Source: Candidatus Zixiibacteriota bacterium (GTDB taxonomy: Bacteria > Zixibacteria > MSB-5A5 > GN15 > PGXB01). Taken from it: a DNA stretch of 19,058 nt. Each line of letters starts with the position of its first letter. Position 1 is the first letter of the stretch. The DNA lies in NCBI GenBank assembly GCA_900498245.1, contig LS998015.1, positions 3,396,978-3,416,035 of the forward strand. The letters run 5' to 3'. Shown here piece after piece: positions 4,671 through 13,327 of this stretch. The translations under genes were made by a program, and so were the position numbers. The notes beneath the pieces are model-generated. The model worked only from the letters and a program-made list of their open reading frames with translations. It was not told the origin of the DNA and searched no databases.

Positions 4671-5570
4671 TCATTTGAGAAATGTGCCTTGCCTGAGTTC
4701 ATCGAAAGCCTTCCGCAATTGCTCCTGGGTGTTCATTACAATCGGGCCATACCAGGCCACCGGCTCCCTGAGGGGTCTTCCCGAAACAAGCAGGAATCGC
4801 ACCCCGTTCTCACCGGCCTGGATTGAAACTTCATCGCCGCTGTCAAAAAGAACCAGGGAGCGATTATCGGCTTCGGTGGGCGGATTGGTATCCAGCCAGC
4901 CGACACTTTCTGTCGGTACCGCCAGAGGCTCCGAAGCATTGCAGAATTTCCCTGAACCGTCAAATATATAAGCAAAGGCCTGGCTTTTGGTTTCCACGGC
5001 CAGGGTTTTGCGCTTGCCGGCTGGTACAGTAATATCAACATAAATCGGGTCAGCGGCAATGCCTTCAACCGGCCCTTGTTTACCCCAGAATTTTCCGCAG
5101 ACAATACGGGCTTTGGTTCCGTCATCTTCGGTGACTTCCGGGATATCGGCGGATTTTACCTCCTGATAGCGGGGCGCTGTCATTTTCATGGCGGCCGGTA
5201 GATTGGCCCAAAGTTGAAAGCCGTGCATTCGGCCGGTCGGATCCCCTTTCGGCATCTCCTGATGTATAATGCCGCTTCCGGCGGTCATCCATTGAATATC
5301 TCCGGCCGATATGGTGCCGTGATTGCCGATCGAATCGCCATGTTCCACCGTCCCTGCCAGCACATAGGTAATCGTCTCGATGCCGCGGTGGGGATGCCAG
5401 GGAAAACCCGGAAGATAATCTTCGGGGTGCTCGTTGCGGAAATCGTCAAGGAGGAGGAATGGGTCGAAATCGGAGGTGTCGCCGAATCCGAAGGCGCGGC
5501 GCAGATGGACTCCGGCGCCTTCAAGAGTCGGCCGCGCTTTGGTGAGCCGCTTGACAGGGCGAAGAGACAT
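4671..5570 (-). CDS. Pirin family protein
   Basis: A 299-residue bicupin of the pirin family. The N-terminal cupin carries the metal ligands expected from human pirin: HPHRG (His59, His61) and HQEMP (His103, Glu105). The MHGFQLWANLP motif (115-125) and a degenerate C-terminal cupin containing LLVSGRPLREPVAWYGPIVM complete the family pattern. Known activities include quercetin 2,3-dioxygenase and redox-sensitive regulation; bacterial roles are poorly defined, so only the family is claimed. Full-length. The start is supported by AAAGGAG upstream of ATG 5570. It lies 169 bp downstream of the winged-helix gene, in a gap containing nested palindromes (5711-5738). Confidence 0.92.
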   Translation of the reverse strand: MSLRPVKRLTKARPTLEGAGVHLRRAFGFGDTSDFDPFLLLDDFRNEHPEDYLPGFPWHPHRGIETITYVLAGTVEHGDSIGNHGTISAGDIQWMTAGSGIIHQEMPKGDPTGRMHGFQLWANLPAAMKMTAPRYQEVKSADIPEVTEDDGTKARIVCGKFWGKQGPVEGIAADPIYVDITVPAGKRKTLAVETKSQAFAYIFDGSGKFCNASEPLAVPTESVGWLDTNPPTEADNRSLVLFDSGDEVSIQAGENGVRFLLVSGRPLREPVAWYGPIVMNTQEQLRKAFDELRQGTFLK

Positions 5571-5710
5571 ATAAAACTCCTTTCACAATACTGATATTAC
5601 GCCGCCCCCGGCTGAAATTGTAATTATTAGCGAAATCGGTATCCTGAAATTTTATAAATTATTGCAGACTCATATAATACCAAAAACTTTTGGACTGACG
5701 GTCATGGAGT

Positions 5711-5738
5711 CGCGATATCGCTATCATATCATGATATC
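5711..5738. repeat. Nested palindromes downstream of the winged-helix gene
   Basis: Two copies of the palindrome GATATC (5714-5719 and 5733-5738) flank a stretch containing a 12-bp perfect palindrome, atatcatgatat (5726-5737). A third self-complementary site, cgatatcg, overlaps the first copy. It sits two bases beyond the stop of the winged-helix gene and about 140 bp upstream of pirin. It could be a protein-binding site for pirin expression or a weak hairpin. No T-tract follows on either strand, so a terminator is unlikely. Confidence 0.4.
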
Positions 5739-5739
5739 C

Positions 5740-6327
5740 CTATTCGACGGCATTATATTGACGAAGAAATTTCATTAAATCCTGGATCTCAGAAAGGTAC
5801 TCCCCTCCTATATTGGCTCTTTTCATTATCTCCTCAATGCCCTGCGGCTCACCGTCAGGAAAAGGCAGGTGGAAAAGAAATGATCCCTGGGCCGTCGTAA
5901 GATTAATACGCCGTTCTTCCCGACTGCGTCCCCGCCCGGTCCAGACAATAACACTGCCAATAGAACTTTTATTTCGGGAGACAACAAATCTGGCATCAGC
6001 CCCCTTGGCTTCACGAAATTTCTCAGACGGCTGAGGTGACGGCTCCGGCGTTTTGAGAGAATGAAGGTCTATATCAATGGTGATCCGCGCGGTCTTCATA
6101 GAATATCGAAAATAGGGCCTTTTTCCCTCATAAACTTCATTCTTTTCGACTAAATTCAATGAAACCAATGCTTCTAAAAACTCCTGCGAAGTATTAATGT
6201 GGATATTCAGTCGTGAAGCCGCCTCCGATGCTGAAATATCCTTATAATCTAAAAGCAATTTGAAAAATGATTCGGCGTAATCTCTGGAAAGATAGCCGCC
6301 CAATTTTGCTCCCGTTCTAAAATCCAT
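5740..6327 (-). CDS. Winged-helix DNA-binding protein, probable autoregulator
   Basis: A 195-residue protein of no named family that I recognise. The N-terminal 80 residues look like a winged helix: an amphipathic helix (ESFFKLLLDYKD), a helix-turn-helix (ISASEAASRLNIHINTSQEFLEALVSLNLVEK) and a wing (EVYEGKRPYFRYSM), similar in layout to ArsR/MarR-type repressors. The remaining about 110 residues are beta-rich, then helical (GIEEIMKRANIGGEYLSEIQDLMKFLRQYN), and may sense or dimerise. The upstream gene's stop codon (6337-6339) abuts an in-frame GTG (6336). I prefer ATG 6327, because the AGGTG Shine-Dalgarno site lies six bases upstream of it. Translation is therefore coupled to the membrane-protein gene. 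The operator cluster at 7251-7292 in front of the operon is its likely target. DNA binding is inferred from predicted fold only. Confidence 0.7.
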   Translation of the reverse strand: MDFRTGAKLGGYLSRDYAESFFKLLLDYKDISASEAASRLNIHINTSQEFLEALVSLNLVEKNEVYEGKRPYFRYSMKTARITIDIDLHSLKTPEPSPQPSEKFREAKGADARFVVSRNKSSIGSVIVWTGRGRSREERRINLTTAQGSFLFHLPFPDGEPQGIEEIMKRANIGGEYLSEIQDLMKFLRQYNAVE

Positions 6328-6336
6328 ATCATGCAC

Positions 6337-7149
6337 CTAACTCGCCGGATGTTCCCGAACGTCATTCATCATGTCGATTATGCGTATGCCTTCCCCTTTT
6401 CTGTATAAATCGAGAAATCCCCCAAATAGCTCCCCCAGCGAGTGGCACAATTGGTCAAAGGAAAAACTATCTTTGAATTTCAAATATTCATGCTGGCCGA
6501 TATTTACGGTGACATTTCCGTCATAGCTGAATGAAATCCAGGTGGCATCACTATAGTCGTGACGCAATTTATAGAGACGCAGAAATCCCTGTAGCCAATC
6601 AGCCGCTACAAAGACGATGCGATCGGTTTCATAATACGGTACAGCAATATGATATTTGAGCGCAAAAGCTGCAAATTCCGTTAACTCAAATTTGGTGCAA
6701 TTTGCCCTGCCGCCGGGGCGGGGACGGGGGGTGAATCCGTCGGTTGTATCTTTGACGGGTCTCGCCGCTAATTCAAGAATTTCCCGGACGCGCCATTTCA
6801 AACGCTTTGTGAACCAGAGATACATCGTAGCGGCCAGAGAGAAAACAAGAACCGCCGTGGCAAGTTGTGTGAACCTGTGGCTGATAAAAAACATTTCGGA
6901 ATACCTTCCGGCGAAAGCAAATGCCGCGGACCCTTGAAAAAGCGCCACGACAATGTAACCGGCGTTTAATGTCAGGGCAAAATTCACTAAAGAGAGACCG
7001 CTAAATAGCAGGAATACAATCCCAATGTAGCTGTAAGCCGCTTCAACACCCCAGTAAATGAAGACGAAAGCAAAAGCTGCCAGTACGATAATTGCGGGCC
7101 CCAATGCCGGGACAATCGAGGCCGGCTTCAATTTGTACAGCCAATACAT
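6337..7149 (-). CDS. Four-helix membrane protein with cytosolic C-terminal domain
   Basis: A 270-residue protein I do not recognise. Four strongly hydrophobic segments lie at about 12-32, 40-57, 60-82 and 94-113. A basic juxtamembrane stretch (KRLKWRVREI) and a proline-rich linker (TPRPRPGG, about 140-147) follow, then a soluble domain of about 120 residues (about 150-270) with mixed strands and helices, likely cytoplasmic by the positive-inside rule. There are no Walker, kinase, DxxD or metal motifs. The start at ATG 7149 is backed by GGAGGT nine bases upstream. It is the first gene of a two-gene operon with the winged-helix protein, driven by the promoter at 7272-7300. The arrangement suggests a membrane component whose level, or whose signal, is controlled by the partner regulator. 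That is inference. Confidence 0.75.
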   Translation of the reverse strand: MYWLYKLKPASIVPALGPAIIVLAAFAFVFIYWGVEAAYSYIGIVFLLFSGLSLVNFALTLNAGYIVVALFQGSAAFAFAGRYSEMFFISHRFTQLATAVLVFSLAATMYLWFTKRLKWRVREILELAARPVKDTTDGFTPRPRPGGRANCTKFELTEFAAFALKYHIAVPYYETDRIVFVAADWLQGFLRLYKLRHDYSDATWISFSYDGNVTVNIGQHEYLKFKDSFSFDQLCHSLGELFGGFLDLYRKGEGIRIIDMMNDVREHPAS

Positions 7150-7250
7150 TTAATTATACCTCCGGGTACGGCGCCGCCCGCCATACACCACAAAAAAATG
7201 TAAAACGGATTCAAAATTGAACGACCATACTACATTATTATATAATTACA

Positions 7251-7292
7251 TATATACTATAATCTATTTATAGTATATAGTATTTATACTAT
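7251..7292. promoter_or_regulatory. Four-half-site operator cluster
   Basis: Four copies of a 7-mer, ATACTAT or its complement ATAGTAT, occur at 7254-7260, 7270-7276, 7277-7283 and 7286-7292. They form two inverted repeats. The first has perfect 12-bp arms (tatatactataa at 7251-7262, ttatagtatata at 7268-7279) with a 5-bp spacer. The second has 7-bp arms (7277-7283 and 7286-7292) separated by TT. The second fills the -35/-10 spacer of the minus-strand promoter; the first covers the -10 and the expected transcription start. This is the classical position for a repressor. The winged-helix protein encoded in the operon is the obvious candidate ligand. Confidence 0.75.
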
Positions 7293-7300
7293 CTTGTCAA
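7272..7300 (-). promoter_or_regulatory. Near-consensus sigma-70 promoter of the membrane/winged-helix operon
   Basis: On the minus strand there is a perfect -35 hexamer TTGACA (7300-7295), a 17-bp spacer and a -10 hexamer TATACT (7277-7272; 5 of 6 matches to TATAAT). Transcription would begin near 7265, giving an untranslated leader of about 115 bases before ATG 7149. A promoter this strong, overlaid with operator half-sites, suggests tight repression relieved under a specific condition. Confidence 0.75.
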
Positions 7301-7495
7301 GGAAAAAGTTGCAGGAATGTTCAACCAAAACCAAATTTGTTTCGAGTCTTATTGTCGATGTAACATGATGGAATACAGGAGATTATGGCGCCATGGCGTC
7401 AATTTCGCCAAAATCGATTATTTTACAGCGACCATTAGAAATGGCCCAAAATTGTCACTTTTCTAAATCACACTGTCAAAGGCGGATACATTGTC

Positions 7496-8239
7496 TTATT
7501 TCTTTCCCCCTGTCAGCGATTTGCCCAAATCCTTCAGTTTATCGGTCGCTTCGGTTTTGATCTCCTCAATACCTTGATCTTTCAAACTGGAGAGATCCTT
7601 TCCGAATCCATCGGGAAGCAAACCGCTCCCGGATGCCAGCGCTTTGGAGACGAGGGTCTTCACAACGGTAGCCGTTATTTCACTTATTTTGGCGCCATTG
7701 TCGCTTCCGATATCGCGCAAAGTGAAGTTGTCGAGTTTAAACGACTTCTCCGCCTTTTTTCCCAGAAGGCTTAGCGAGCCATTTACACTGATATCCCTGA
7801 GGGCCACAAGCCCGATGCGGAATTTTTGAGACTCTCCCGAAGAGGAGATATCCATCTTTTTAATATTGTCCAGAAGCACCTGATAGTTGCCTTTTTTGTC
7901 GATTTGCTCGAGATTGAGCGCAACTCCCTCTATTACGAAAGAATCGATTTTGACCTCTTTGTCCAGAATGGAACCGGTCTCTACCGCCAATATTCCCTTC
8001 TTCAGGGACATGAAATCACTGGTCCCAAAACCTTCGGGATTCTTGATTTCGAGATTATTAAGTTTCAAACTGCCGCCGCCTATATTGAGGAACGCCGAGC
8101 CGAGATCAGTTTCGACACCGAGAGCATAAGTGCCCCCGGCCTCAACCGCCTTCTTAACCAGGGTGTTGCGGACAAAGTAGGCGATTATCGGTACCGCAAT
8201 TAAGACGACAATGATTGCCAAAATGATTTTCTTTAACAT
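7496..8239 (-). CDS. AsmA-like membrane-anchored envelope protein
   Basis: A 247-residue protein starting with a single hydrophobic helix (about 4-24, ILAIIVVLIAVPIIAYFV). The rest is rich in alternating beta strands of the AsmA/TamB kind: 'GSLKLNNLEIKNPEGF', 'VKIDSFVIEGVALNLEQ', 'KFRIGLVALRDISVNG' and 'SFKLDNFTLRDIG'. AsmA-like proteins are inner-membrane-anchored, act in the periplasm and are linked to outer-membrane biogenesis or lipid transport. This one is much shorter than E. coli AsmA (about 617 residues), so it resembles only the N-terminal repeat region. The tail (LKDQGIEEIKTEATDKLKDLGKSL) is an amphipathic helix. An ideal AGGAGGTG Shine-Dalgarno site precedes ATG 8239. Divergent from the DUF488 gene. 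Family assignment is by pattern, without alignment. Confidence 0.7.
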   Translation of the reverse strand: MLKKIILAIIVVLIAVPIIAYFVRNTLVKKAVEAGGTYALGVETDLGSAFLNIGGGSLKLNNLEIKNPEGFGTSDFMSLKKGILAVETGSILDKEVKIDSFVIEGVALNLEQIDKKGNYQVLLDNIKKMDISSSGESQKFRIGLVALRDISVNGSLSLLGKKAEKSFKLDNFTLRDIGSDNGAKISEITATVVKTLVSKALASGSGLLPDGFGKDLSSLKDQGIEEIKTEATDKLKDLGKSLTGGKK

Positions 8240-8873: not shown

Positions 8874-11291
8874 CTAAATGTCATCCGAAACCACGTTGAC
8901 TTCATAATCAACACCTTCCCATCGCCGGGCCGCGGGCCAATATATGGTGAAAATAATTTTCCTGTCCGCCTCAAGATGTTCTGTTTCCAAATCTACCAGA
9001 TGAACCCCGATTCCCGTATCGGTGGACAGTGAATCATGTACTGTTTTCCAGTTATCGTCGCTCCAGTGAACTCTCGCCGGACTCAAGGTCTCGATTCGCA
9101 AATTTTCACCGCGCCGGATCACTCGACATTTGTGATTGAATCTCCAAATAGCCAGGCGCGATTCGATCTTATCTACCAGATATCGCTTAACTGTCTGCCC
9201 TGGCATATCAAAAACGCGCCCATTATCGATTGATCTTTTCAATTTTAGATACTCGGTATGCGCCCATACTAACGGCATGGCCGATCCCGACGGGCGGCCG
9301 AACTCCAATTCCCGCGATATGATATCGGGTGATTCCCAAATTTGCTCGGGAATCAGTCCGGTTTCACCGGCGAAACTTTCCATGGCCCGCTTCATCCTTT
9401 TGGCCCCTTCAATGTCACCGGCGGCCAGGTAATAATGTCCGCGCTCCCCGCTCAAAAGCGGCCAGGCCCGCCCGATACCGGAGCCGTCGAACGGTCGACC
9501 ATCTTCATGCTCGCCATAACCATCATCGTTGTATCTTCGCCAGGCGGGCCCGGTCGGAGTTTCGACTTTTAAGAGCGAATCTATTGCCTTAAGTGTCCCA
9601 ATTATCTTCGGATCATCCGGGGCCCGCAATCCGAAGCGGACCAGCGCCAGAGCATCCGGACTGATTATATGTGCGGCCTCCTGAAGATCGGAACCGAGCG
9701 GACGATTCTTAATGGGGACAAACCCAAGTACCGGAGATGAACCGTCGGCCGACTCCGGCGGGGCGATTCTAACATAGTAACCATCTATCCCCAGCCGTCT
9801 GGCCAAATCGGTGTCCCTCACGTAGGTCCAGCGCTCAATTTGCGAGTTCCAAGCATCGGCGGTTTCCCGCAAATACGACGCCACTTTATTCTCCCGGTTC
9901 GTGTCAGCGAAATCAGCGGCGGCCAGAAGAGCCGAAATTTCCACCGCCAGTGTGAACGGTGAAAATCCGGGGTCTTCCTCCCACCGATCCTGCTGAGTAA
10001 CGGGGCCGTTGCAGATAATATATCGAGCGGCCCGCCGTATCATCGGCCAAAATTGTTTTATATCTTCGGGCTCCAGGGCCTTCTCCCGCAGCGCCAGATC
10101 CACCAGGAGTATAGGAAAGGCGGTCTCGTCCATTTGCGAGCCCGACCAGTACGGTGTCCCATCCAGCCACATGTTTTGGGGCCAATGCCCGTCGGCTTCC
10201 TGCGTCGCCATCAGATATTTCAAAGAGCGCCGGGCATCTTCTCGCGCTCCAATCGCCAAAAGACCGCCCGCCGTCTCCACCATATCCCGGGGCCATACCA
10301 GATGATAGCCTCCAAGATCATCATCCCCTTTGTTAAATCCCCAGGGTATGGAAAGGCTGGCGATAATACCGCCCGGGAATCGCTTCGCTTCATGCATTTT
10401 TAGAACCGCTGCACTTATAGCCTCCATGTCTTTGTCATTATTCAAACGGTCTCTCTTTCGCCCCAGGGTGGCGTAAAATCTCCGCCATCCTTCAAGATAA
10501 ATATCTCTCATTGCATCATAACCGTCAAGCAAACTGGCCGCCGCCCGGTGACCGGCTTCCGCCGCATTGGTTCCAAATCCGATCACAAGTACAAAAGTAT
10601 TACCCGCTGCCGGCATCCAATCGATTTCTGCCGTCAGGGCAACATTACCGTCTTCGGCTCTCTCGAATTGCCATTGCATCGATTTATGATTGGCCAGATC
10701 TTGCCAGCCATCGGAAAATCCGACAAACCCGACCGAACGGGCCTTCCATCCCACGGAAGCGGCCAGGGCCAGAGCAATCCCGTCGCGCTGAGCAAAAAGC
10801 ATCGGCCGACCCTTGAAATCGCCCAGCCAGGCGCTGTTCCCGGCGCCGCGGTTGCCAAGATGGGGGGCCAGAAGGACATGCAAACGATAGAGCTTGGCCC
10901 TCTCCGTCAGCGGTACGAACCTCGTCCGCTGCAAAACCGCATCACGTTTCGGATCGGAGATTATTTCTTTTTCAATGCGATAGTTTCCCTGATGACAATT
11001 ATTGATTATGCGAAAAGCCGGTATGGCCCCTTCGAGATACTCGATTGAACTAACAGTATGGCGCTTTTCCTCAGAAAAGAAATCGCGACCGTCGGTAACA
11101 ATCATTCCCATATCTCGGATGCAGGCTTGATCGATTCGAGGATAATAGATTTCATTAAAAATACCATGGCTCAATGTGAACCAGACCCGGCTGGCTGATC
11201 CGATAGCGGTGCCGATTCCATTCTTGGCGCTCGAGGTCCACCGCGGTGGAATTCCCGGAGCACCAAAAGCATAATTTGCGGAAATCTTCAT
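8874..11291 (-). CDS. GH15 glucoamylase / glucodextranase-like glycoside hydrolase
   Basis: An 805-residue protein. Residues about 1-270 form a beta-sandwich N-terminal domain typical of prokaryotic GH15 enzymes. About 280-690 is the (alpha/alpha)6 barrel. Barrel landmarks are HLVWPRDM (330-337), WPQNMWLDGTPYW (370-382), RWEEDPGFSP (436-445; Glu438 is the expected general acid) and GLIPEQIWE (645-653; Glu649 the expected base). The last about 100 residues form an extra beta domain. It has no signal peptide, so it should act in the cytoplasm on glycogen, maltodextrin or another alpha-glucoside, releasing beta-D-glucose. GH15 also contains trehalases and dextran-active enzymes, so the substrate is open. 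It is the last gene of an apparent operon with glucose dehydrogenase (45-bp gap) and an aquaporin. The Shine-Dalgarno site is weak (GAGA). Confidence 0.92.
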   Translation of the reverse strand: MKISANYAFGAPGIPPRWTSSAKNGIGTAIGSASRVWFTLSHGIFNEIYYPRIDQACIRDMGMIVTDGRDFFSEEKRHTVSSIEYLEGAIPAFRIINNCHQGNYRIEKEIISDPKRDAVLQRTRFVPLTERAKLYRLHVLLAPHLGNRGAGNSAWLGDFKGRPMLFAQRDGIALALAASVGWKARSVGFVGFSDGWQDLANHKSMQWQFERAEDGNVALTAEIDWMPAAGNTFVLVIGFGTNAAEAGHRAAASLLDGYDAMRDIYLEGWRRFYATLGRKRDRLNNDKDMEAISAAVLKMHEAKRFPGGIIASLSIPWGFNKGDDDLGGYHLVWPRDMVETAGGLLAIGAREDARRSLKYLMATQEADGHWPQNMWLDGTPYWSGSQMDETAFPILLVDLALREKALEPEDIKQFWPMIRRAARYIICNGPVTQQDRWEEDPGFSPFTLAVEISALLAAADFADTNRENKVASYLRETADAWNSQIERWTYVRDTDLARRLGIDGYYVRIAPPESADGSSPVLGFVPIKNRPLGSDLQEAAHIISPDALALVRFGLRAPDDPKIIGTLKAIDSLLKVETPTGPAWRRYNDDGYGEHEDGRPFDGSGIGRAWPLLSGERGHYYLAAGDIEGAKRMKRAMESFAGETGLIPEQIWESPDIISRELEFGRPSGSAMPLVWAHTEYLKLKRSIDNGRVFDMPGQTVKRYLVDKIESRLAIWRFNHKCRVIRRGENLRIETLSPARVHWSDDNWKTVHDSLSTDTGIGVHLVDLETEHLEADRKIIFTIYWPAARRWEGVDYEVNVVSDDI

Positions 11292-11336
11292 AAAAATTTC
11301 TCAACATTAATTATTCGAAAAAACTTCCGAAGTCAT

Positions 11337-12443
11337 TTATTTCGCCCATTCGATAACCACTTTGATTTCATCCTCTGCCTGGTGCATCAGGGCGGACGCA
11401 AAATCGGTATATCGATATCGGTGCGTTATTAATTTCTCCATGTGCTTTCCCCACCGTCTATACGCCGCATAAATATCGTCAACCGCCATGGCGTAATGCT
11501 CACGGGACGCATTAACACTTCCGACCATTATCTGATTGTCCAGAACCAGTCTGCGTAGAAGGTCAGCCCCGGAGATACTCAAGGGACGGCTGCCGGAGGG
11601 AATTCCGGTGAGAACATAAATGCCGTTTAGCGCCAAACCATCAAGAAGATTGAACGCCAGACCGGGGACACCGGTGGCTTCGAAAATGAAATCCCACGGC
11701 TTCCTGCCTTTCGCCAGTTGCTCCGGTGACACCGTCCGGCCATCGATATAAGATCCGCCGATTTCCTTCAACCATTGCGGGCGGATACTCGCCTCATCGA
11801 CAATATCGACACCATCGACCTCGGCACCGCGAAGGCGCAAGGCGACGGCGGCAAGAAGTCCGATGGGCCCCAGCCCGGCAACAAGGCAGCGCCGACCCTT
11901 GAACCAATCCGAGGATTCGGGGATATCAGGCAGACGAGCGCCTTGTAGCCGAACGGCCTCATCGATTGCTTTCTCCGCCACCGAGAGCGGCTCTGTTAAA
12001 ACGCCCAGCGTGGCAATTTCGCCGGGAATCCTGACTAGATTCTGTTCATGATCAACGACATATTCCGTTTGATATCCATCCAATTTCCATATCCCTCTCT
12101 CGCGGTAGTCGCCGGAATAACACATATCAAATCTATTCAAACGACAGGCGGCACAAATCCCGCAGGATCGGCGCACGGTGAAAACTGCATAGTCACCCAC
12201 CTTCACAGTTTTGACCGCGGGCCCGGCTTCAACAACCCGTCCTACCATCTCATGCCCCATGACCAGTTCATCGTTTCCCGGGGGTGGCGCGCATCGCCCG
12301 GCGGACGCTTCTTCCCTATCAGTTCCACAGATGCCGACTTCTAGAATCTGAAGTTTTATTTCGTCCGGTGCATCTATATTTGGCTCCGGACGATCCGCGA
12401 GAGAAACCTTAGTGGTCCCCGGTATGATTGATATTGCTTTCAT
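11337..12443 (-). CDS. gdh: Zinc-dependent glucose 1-dehydrogenase (MDR family)
   Basis: A 368-residue medium-chain dehydrogenase resembling Sulfolobus/Thermoplasma glucose dehydrogenase (residues counted from ATG 12449). The catalytic-zinc region is GICGTDRE (Cys41) and GHEMVG (His66, Glu67). A structural-zinc cluster has cysteines at 96, 99, 102 and 110. The Rossmann motif AGLGPIG is at 191-197. The acidic residues after the second strand (GVDIVDE) suggest NAD+ preference, whereas archaeal homologues that use NADP+ have arginines there. It would oxidise glucose to gluconolactone, feeding a gluconate or Entner-Doudoroff route. I chose ATG 12443, because AGGGG lies nine bases upstream, over ATG 12449, where spacing would be only three. 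Between the aquaporin and GH15 genes, 44 and 45 bp away, which supports a shared transcript. Galactose or another aldose remains possible. Confidence 0.87.
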   Translation of the reverse strand: MKAISIIPGTTKVSLADRPEPNIDAPDEIKLQILEVGICGTDREEASAGRCAPPPGNDELVMGHEMVGRVVEAGPAVKTVKVGDYAVFTVRRSCGICAACRLNRFDMCYSGDYRERGIWKLDGYQTEYVVDHEQNLVRIPGEIATLGVLTEPLSVAEKAIDEAVRLQGARLPDIPESSDWFKGRRCLVAGLGPIGLLAAVALRLRGAEVDGVDIVDEASIRPQWLKEIGGSYIDGRTVSPEQLAKGRKPWDFIFEATGVPGLAFNLLDGLALNGIYVLTGIPSGSRPLSISGADLLRRLVLDNQIMVGSVNASREHYAMAVDDIYAAYRRWGKHMEKLITHRYRYTDFASALMHQAEDEIKVVIEWAK

Positions 12444-12487
12444 ATTCATTAACCCCTGTCTTAATCAACGCCCCAATATTGATGTCA

Positions 12488-13327
12488 TCATGTTTTACCC
12501 GCGGGGATCTCCTCCCGCTTAATAAAAATTTGATGCGGATCGTGATTGAAATGGTAGATTTTGGCTATTCTAATTTCAAGACGTTTCAGAAATCCGATTT
12601 CTTTGATCATGATGGCCAGTCCGGCCCCTAACAGCGGTCCCGCAAAATAAATCCACCATCCCGTCCATGCTCCTGAAATCACCGCCGGACCGAAAGTTCG
12701 CGCCGGATTGGTACTTGTCCCGGAGATAGGCGCCTCCCAATAAACCATTACGGCGTATAGAAACGGAAAAAGCAGAGGGGTCCATTTTGCCAGACGGCGG
12801 TAGCCTATAAATAGGAATAATCCCATGATAAGAGCGAAGGTCGTAATTATCTCACCAAATAAGGCCATCTTCGGTCCAAATTCCGCTCCCGGTATGGTGG
12901 CCCCAAAATTTACGCTTCGACCGATCCCGTCCCAAAATAAAAGAGGCAAAGCACCCAGAAGTGCTCCGGAAAACTGAGCCAAAATATATCCTAAGGCCAG
13001 CGGCCCGGTCATTTTTTTCAATGTCCAGAAACTGAATGTCACCGCCGGATTAATATGAGCCCCGCTTGTCTTTCCGCACCAGGAGACAGCGATCAAAGCG
13101 CCGGTAGTTCCAAAAAGAAAACCGGTCATAAGTCTTCTTATGCCCGGATCCGGAAGTAATGCCGGCAGGGGGCTGCCGTCACCAAAGAACGCTATCACTA
13201 TTGAAAGGCCGACCGAAATTAAAATTGCCGTGCCGGCGAATTCCGCGATAACGGCCTTGCGAATCCCCACCTTTCTTGTTCGAGCATGATCCCGGTTTTT
13301 CATATAAATCACGCACCGCCGATTCAT
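12488..13327 (-). CDS. Aquaporin / MIP family channel
   Basis: A 279-residue integral membrane protein of the major intrinsic protein family. Both half-helix motifs are present: SGAHINPAVT (NPA at 93-95) and SGTSTNPAR (NPA at 207-209, filter Arg210), with six hydrophobic helices. In the aromatic/arginine filter, the position equivalent to the AqpZ histidine (15 residues before the Arg) is valine (Val195). The pore may therefore be wider or more hydrophobic than a strict water channel; this rests on a hand alignment. The start is uncertain: ATG 13327 and ATG 13303 are both in frame and neither has a strong ribosome-binding site. It has a longer, basic, His-containing C-terminal tail (about 245-279). 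It is the first gene of the putative aquaporin / glucose dehydrogenase / GH15 operon. Confidence 0.92.
   Translation of the reverse strand: MNRRCVIYMKNRDHARTRKVGIRKAVIAEFAGTAILISVGLSIVIAFFGDGSPLPALLPDPGIRRLMTGFLFGTTGALIAVSWCGKTSGAHINPAVTFSFWTLKKMTGPLALGYILAQFSGALLGALPLLFWDGIGRSVNFGATIPGAEFGPKMALFGEIITTFALIMGLFLFIGYRRLAKWTPLLFPFLYAVMVYWEAPISGTSTNPARTFGPAVISGAWTGWWIYFAGPLLGAGLAIMIKEIGFLKRLEIRIAKIYHFNHDPHQIFIKREEIPAGKT

Follow-up and report, generated by a model that had tools for sequence, protein, structure and literature searches.

A gene pair for a membrane protein and an ArsR-like winged-helix protein, with a conserved putative operator dyad in at least five phyla, as a possible membrane-to-gene signalling unit

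The SdpR protein of Bacillus subtilis is thought to be ArsR-like, and its partner, SdpI, has six membrane helices. They are encoded by the two-gene operon sdpRI, in which an autorepressor is paired with a polytopic membrane protein that sequesters SdpR at the membrane on meeting the signal SdpC (PMC1626106). This study focused on a gene pair of comparable design in a Candidatus Zixiibacteriota bacterium, found in a 19-kb stretch of DNA (19,058 nucleotides, hereafter the window) that is a piece of a 3.5-Mb single-contig genome. SdpR/SdpI is the closest working analogue, as both systems join an autorepressor with an ArsR-like winged helix to a membrane protein in a two-gene operon, with repression here read from a conserved dyad. 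The two also differ. The gene order is reversed, the membrane protein has about four helices rather than six and, in addition, a soluble domain of large size, nothing resembling sdpC was identified, and about half of the operons carry an extra, transglutaminase-like gene. None of the 31 members of the membrane-protein family matched the SdpI family (Pfam SdpI or DUF1648) at E 0.1. By analogy, the system may consist of an ArsR-fold autorepressor that is relieved by its membrane partner. The fold of the DNA-binding domain and the short dyad at its own promoter are also shared with ArsR-/Phr-type repressors (CadC, CzrA, and Phr of Pyrococcus furiosus), but here all Pfam models of the ArsR type stay below their cut-offs, and the protein has a further domain, of some 110 residues, and a membrane-protein partner.

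The first gene of the pair (6337-7149, minus strand) encodes a membrane protein of 270 aa, with about four membrane helices (residues 13-114) followed by a soluble alpha/beta domain (about residues 121-262), and is preceded on the same strand by a ribosome binding site, GGAGG, recognised from the sequence at 7159-7163. No Pfam or NCBIfam family scored above its cut-off. A structure model based on an alignment of 31 homologues (pLDDT 85) shows an N-terminal helical membrane part and an alpha/beta domain, matching the initial annotation of this gene as a four-helix membrane protein with a soluble C-terminal domain. Foldseek gave no significant match to the fold, and VIA-align returned only common helix bundles for the protein (Z up to 8.4) and values within noise for the soluble domain (Z up to 5.6, to TBP). 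Both ends are predicted to be inside, given the basic residues found at the N end and following the last membrane helix. Among 20 close homologues, mean pairwise identity was 0.50 in the soluble domain versus 0.30 in the membrane part, and a better-conserved soluble domain that is predicted to be cytoplasmic fits an output domain rather than a transporter.

The second gene (5740-6336, minus strand) specifies a winged-helix protein of 198 aa when read from its GTG, with an ArsR-like winged helix (about residues 4-85) and a second conserved domain. Since the homologues begin at MDF..., the true start is probably not the GTG at 6336 but the ATG at 6327, which sits 9 nt past the stop of the membrane-protein gene. 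This protein, too, had no Pfam or NCBIfam family above cut-off; HTH_20, with a cut-off of 27, scored 12.0 bits, and the best families for other members likewise fell below theirs in the tables examined. The structure model, based on an alignment of 27 homologues (pLDDT 90), comprises a winged helix and a second domain, and VIA-align placed the winged helix close to CadC (1u2w; Z 10.9, rmsd 2.2 over 79 residues) and to Phr (2p4w; Z 10.8). The earlier identification of the second gene as a winged-helix protein is upheld by this model and by the fold match to CadC. No homology was found between the two proteins.

The operon lies behind a TTGACA-17-TATACT promoter on the minus strand (-35 element, 7295-7300; -10 element, 7272-7277), which, with a 17-bp spacer and 11/12 matches, is the top-scoring match between 5500 and 8500. 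Four copies of ATAGTAT/ATACTAT begin at 7254, 7270, 7277 and 7286, with no further copy in the whole window. There are two inverted repeats: a larger one, 12 bp and perfect with 5 nt between (7251-7262/7268-7279), and a smaller one of 7 bp inside the -35/-10 spacer (7277-7283/7286-7292; no strand assigned to either). The promoter, the four copies and both repeats are where the initial annotation had placed them. The larger repeat corresponds to the candidate binding site, a dyad of two 11-base arms set 7 apart (7251-7279; TATATACTATA-N7-TATAGTATATA), which overlies the -10 element, contained in its upstream arm, and the expected transcription start. Repressors act at sites over the -10 element and the transcription start. 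A role of the dyad as an RNA hairpin was ruled out by its position, as the expected start is inside the dyad and the upstream arm would be left untranscribed.

Repeats of this kind could be a chance product of AT-rich promoter DNA, and some 7-mer or its complement did occur at least four times in 37% of dinucleotide shuffles of 7220-7300. The fourfold ATAGTAT count alone is, because of this, weak evidence, and copy number was dropped as an argument. What makes the evidence for the dyad strong is the comparison across loci. In 28 of 31 loci, from five phyla, the operon promoter carries an 11-7-11 dyad with a consensus near TGTATACTTCA-N7-TGAAGTATATA; of the three loci lacking it, L022 and L034 are truncated by contig ends, while L023 is not clearly cut by one. 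As a guard against circularity, the dyad of the window itself served as an unbiased query; for 22 of 26 loci its best match in the whole locus was the one at the operon start (one or two expected), with a spacing of 7 scoring best among those from 3 to 12. The proposed operator does, then, recur upstream of homologous operons. Its spacing and position are conserved over the five phyla, with a combined p of about 5e-21 relative to Markov-shuffled upstream regions, and this comparison contradicts a chance origin of 7251-7279; that the repeats as such arose by chance is extremely unlikely. The smaller repeat (7277-7292) is not conserved in the other loci and is probably a chance product; for this stretch the chance reading remains likely, and its suggested part in the operator is unsupported, in contrast to that of the larger dyad.

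The placement of the dyad relative to the promoter was also conserved. Outside Bacteroidota, the TTG of the -35 element precedes the dyad by 21 nt in 13/13 loci and the -10 element is formed by dyad bases 3-8, whereas the Bacteroidota loci have a -7 box, TAnnTTTG (one locus reads TAACTTCG), which ends at dyad base 2 in 15/15. The dyad is found at a constant distance to the local promoter under two different promoter types. A search allowing three mismatches showed it to be unique in its own genome, with no second site that would indicate a regulon elsewhere, and a looser form of the pattern is present in 17 of 20 other genomes, at this operon in most of them. The winged-helix protein is very probably the protein that binds the dyad, because the dyad follows its gene even where there is no membrane protein. 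The link between the two is one of association, which would also fit binding by some other cell protein, but the dyad stays with the winged-helix gene over five phyla and through changes of partner, and is unique in its own genome, making a different binder very improbable. There is good reason for confidence that the winged-helix protein represses its own operon, and, given the single site in the genome, it is likely to be a dedicated autorepressor. The autoregulation proposed by the initial annotation is well supported, with all of the support being comparative (gene neighbourhood and conserved dyad).

Among the source genome and its relatives (60 searched), only two besides the source carry either gene, and both carry the two genes side by side. 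A single-sequence search of the genome contigs with the membrane protein gave no match. A winged-helix profile search recovered 27 loci, in Bacteroidales, Anaerolineae, Zixibacteria, Aminicenantes and Krumholzibacteriota. A membrane-protein homologue lies directly upstream of the winged-helix gene in 24 of these (one partial), which bears out the expectation that the two genes would be neighbours elsewhere; that position is taken by a transglutaminase-like gene in L030 and L033, and by an S15 peptidase gene in L019. Across 295 Bacteroidales genomes the winged-helix gene occurred in 12 and the membrane-protein gene in 14, including all of the 12; of the two genomes with the membrane-protein gene alone, one has a short, marginal match and in the other the gene starts 186 bases from a contig end. 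Fisher's test on this co-occurrence gave 1e-19, a value that is overstated as the genomes are related, and the distances of the two proteins correlate over 19 loci (Mantel r 0.84), as shared ancestry alone could also bring about. The pair is near-obligate. It appears to be a portable unit, recurring in at least five phyla with the same DNA site over its promoter. The family libraries and literature searched are in line with its being undescribed, no account of the combination being found in those papers, and no known defence system was recognised; a single match to Csa3 (E 0.007) reflects winged-helix similarity only.

The change of gene content at this position is recent. In the sister species G001, the flanking DUF748 and pirin genes are 81% and 96% identical (the pirin over 81 residues) and enclose an unrelated gene of 334 aa instead of the pair (L118:2418-5111, compared with window 4671-8239). 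The same neighbours surround different genes in the two species, which dates the gain of the pair, or its loss and replacement, to within the genus. The 334-aa gene has a TPR-like start, and genes may be exchanged often at the DUF748-pirin spot. Regulator identity across phyla is about 50%, and the regulator is rare within each phylum; together with the patchy distribution and the exchanged locus, this suggests transfer between phyla, which the winged-helix tree alone does not prove.

The window represents the minimal, two-gene form of the operon. Many related operons have a third gene, missed by the initial annotation, for a secreted protein of the transglutaminase-like superfamily (PF01841, with DUF3471), which is present in 13 of 27 related loci, about half, and is preceded by a second membrane-protein paralogue in seven of those 13. 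The source genome has no homologue of the transglutaminase-like protein of genome G055 at E 1e-10. In G055 the operon is flanked on both sides by secreted hydrolase-like proteins with TPR-like ends (L007:5557-6933, minus strand, and 11158-12405, plus strand), which read like proteins of the metallo-beta-lactamase fold, and a similar TPR-like end precedes the operon in L023 (50-376). In two Anaerolineae loci, a thioesterase-family (4HBT) gene directly follows the winged-helix gene (L024:5600-6070 and L032:5607-6104).

The membrane protein may also be missing from the operon. In genome G111, the winged-helix gene has no membrane-protein gene nearby, with the dyad 57 bp before it, and no homologue of the membrane protein was detected elsewhere in that genome by profile search. 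Genome G137 (Aminicenantes) has two copies, the first consisting of dyad, membrane-protein gene and winged-helix gene, and the second of dyad, S15 peptidase gene and winged-helix gene. These two dyad-regulator units (L062 and L064) point to a possible two-operon regulon or cross-talk. A lone winged-helix gene with its own dyad was seen at L063:6842-8080, and a gene with HTH_17 and DUF2087 domains comes after it at a distance of 108 bp. The control of transglutaminase-like and S15 peptidase genes by the same switch could, speculatively, reflect a response to extracellular peptides or proteins. Two adjacent genes with an autoregulatory dyad, a patchy occurrence and, in the sister species, a locus whose content was exchanged are all features that a toxin-antitoxin module would display, with a harmful membrane protein and an autoregulated winged-helix antitoxin. 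Such a module is improbable, however, as the regulator, though nearly always paired, occurs alone (G111) and with a peptidase gene, the same operon may hold tandem membrane-protein genes together with a transglutaminase-like gene, and no match to the pair was present in the plasmids, phages and viral contigs searched.

The preferred model is that of a horizontally acquired, self-repressing two-gene cassette. A dimer of the winged-helix protein would bind the 29-bp dyad (7251-7279) over the -10 element and transcription start, turning its own operon off. The membrane protein would be the sensing side, with a signal at the membrane acting through the conserved, presumably cytoplasmic, soluble domain, which would then remove the repressor from the DNA and turn the operon on. 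In the fuller versions, the same switch would control the secreted transglutaminase-like protein and, in one genome, the S15-type peptidase. Taken as a whole (acquired cassette, dimer repression at the dyad, relief by the membrane protein), the model falls slightly short of an even chance, and the relief of repression by the membrane protein can be offered only tentatively. The dyad-less locus L023 counts against the model, and the membrane protein is not the sole route of control, because the regulator of G111 occurs without a linked or other membrane-protein homologue.

A possible, though rather doubtful, alternative is that the winged-helix autorepressor senses a small ligand by way of its own C-terminal domain, and that the membrane protein is only an effector, produced in the presence of the ligand and acting in transport or in a change of lipids or envelope. 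Most ArsR-type repressors sense their ligand directly, and the regulator here carries another conserved domain and can occur where the membrane protein does not. Yet the pairing is near-obligate, and conservation within the membrane protein is lowest in its membrane part, which would be unusual for a transporter. The recurrence of the pair with the same site over its promoter suggests a membrane-to-gene signalling unit that controls itself. The membrane-stress or antimicrobial sensing proposed at the outset is unsupported by the data here. That the pair represents an undescribed membrane-receptor/repressor system, which has moved between phyla with its operator, fits two promoter types and controls secreted enzymes (transglutaminase-like or peptidase) besides itself, is conceivable, with the balance somewhat against it.

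The comparison ties two nameless protein families to a defined DNA site, in bacteria that are known almost only from metagenomes. The fixed place of the dyad under two quite different promoter codes amounts to a natural experiment on the way in which repressor and operator may move jointly from phylum to phylum. Other genes of the window include a row on the minus strand (8874-13327) for a glucodextranase/GH15 enzyme, a glucose-dehydrogenase-like protein and a MIP-family (aquaporin) protein, ordinary carbohydrate and channel genes, and a gene at 1119-1994 for a 291-aa protein with a reaction-centre cytochrome c family match and TPR repeats.
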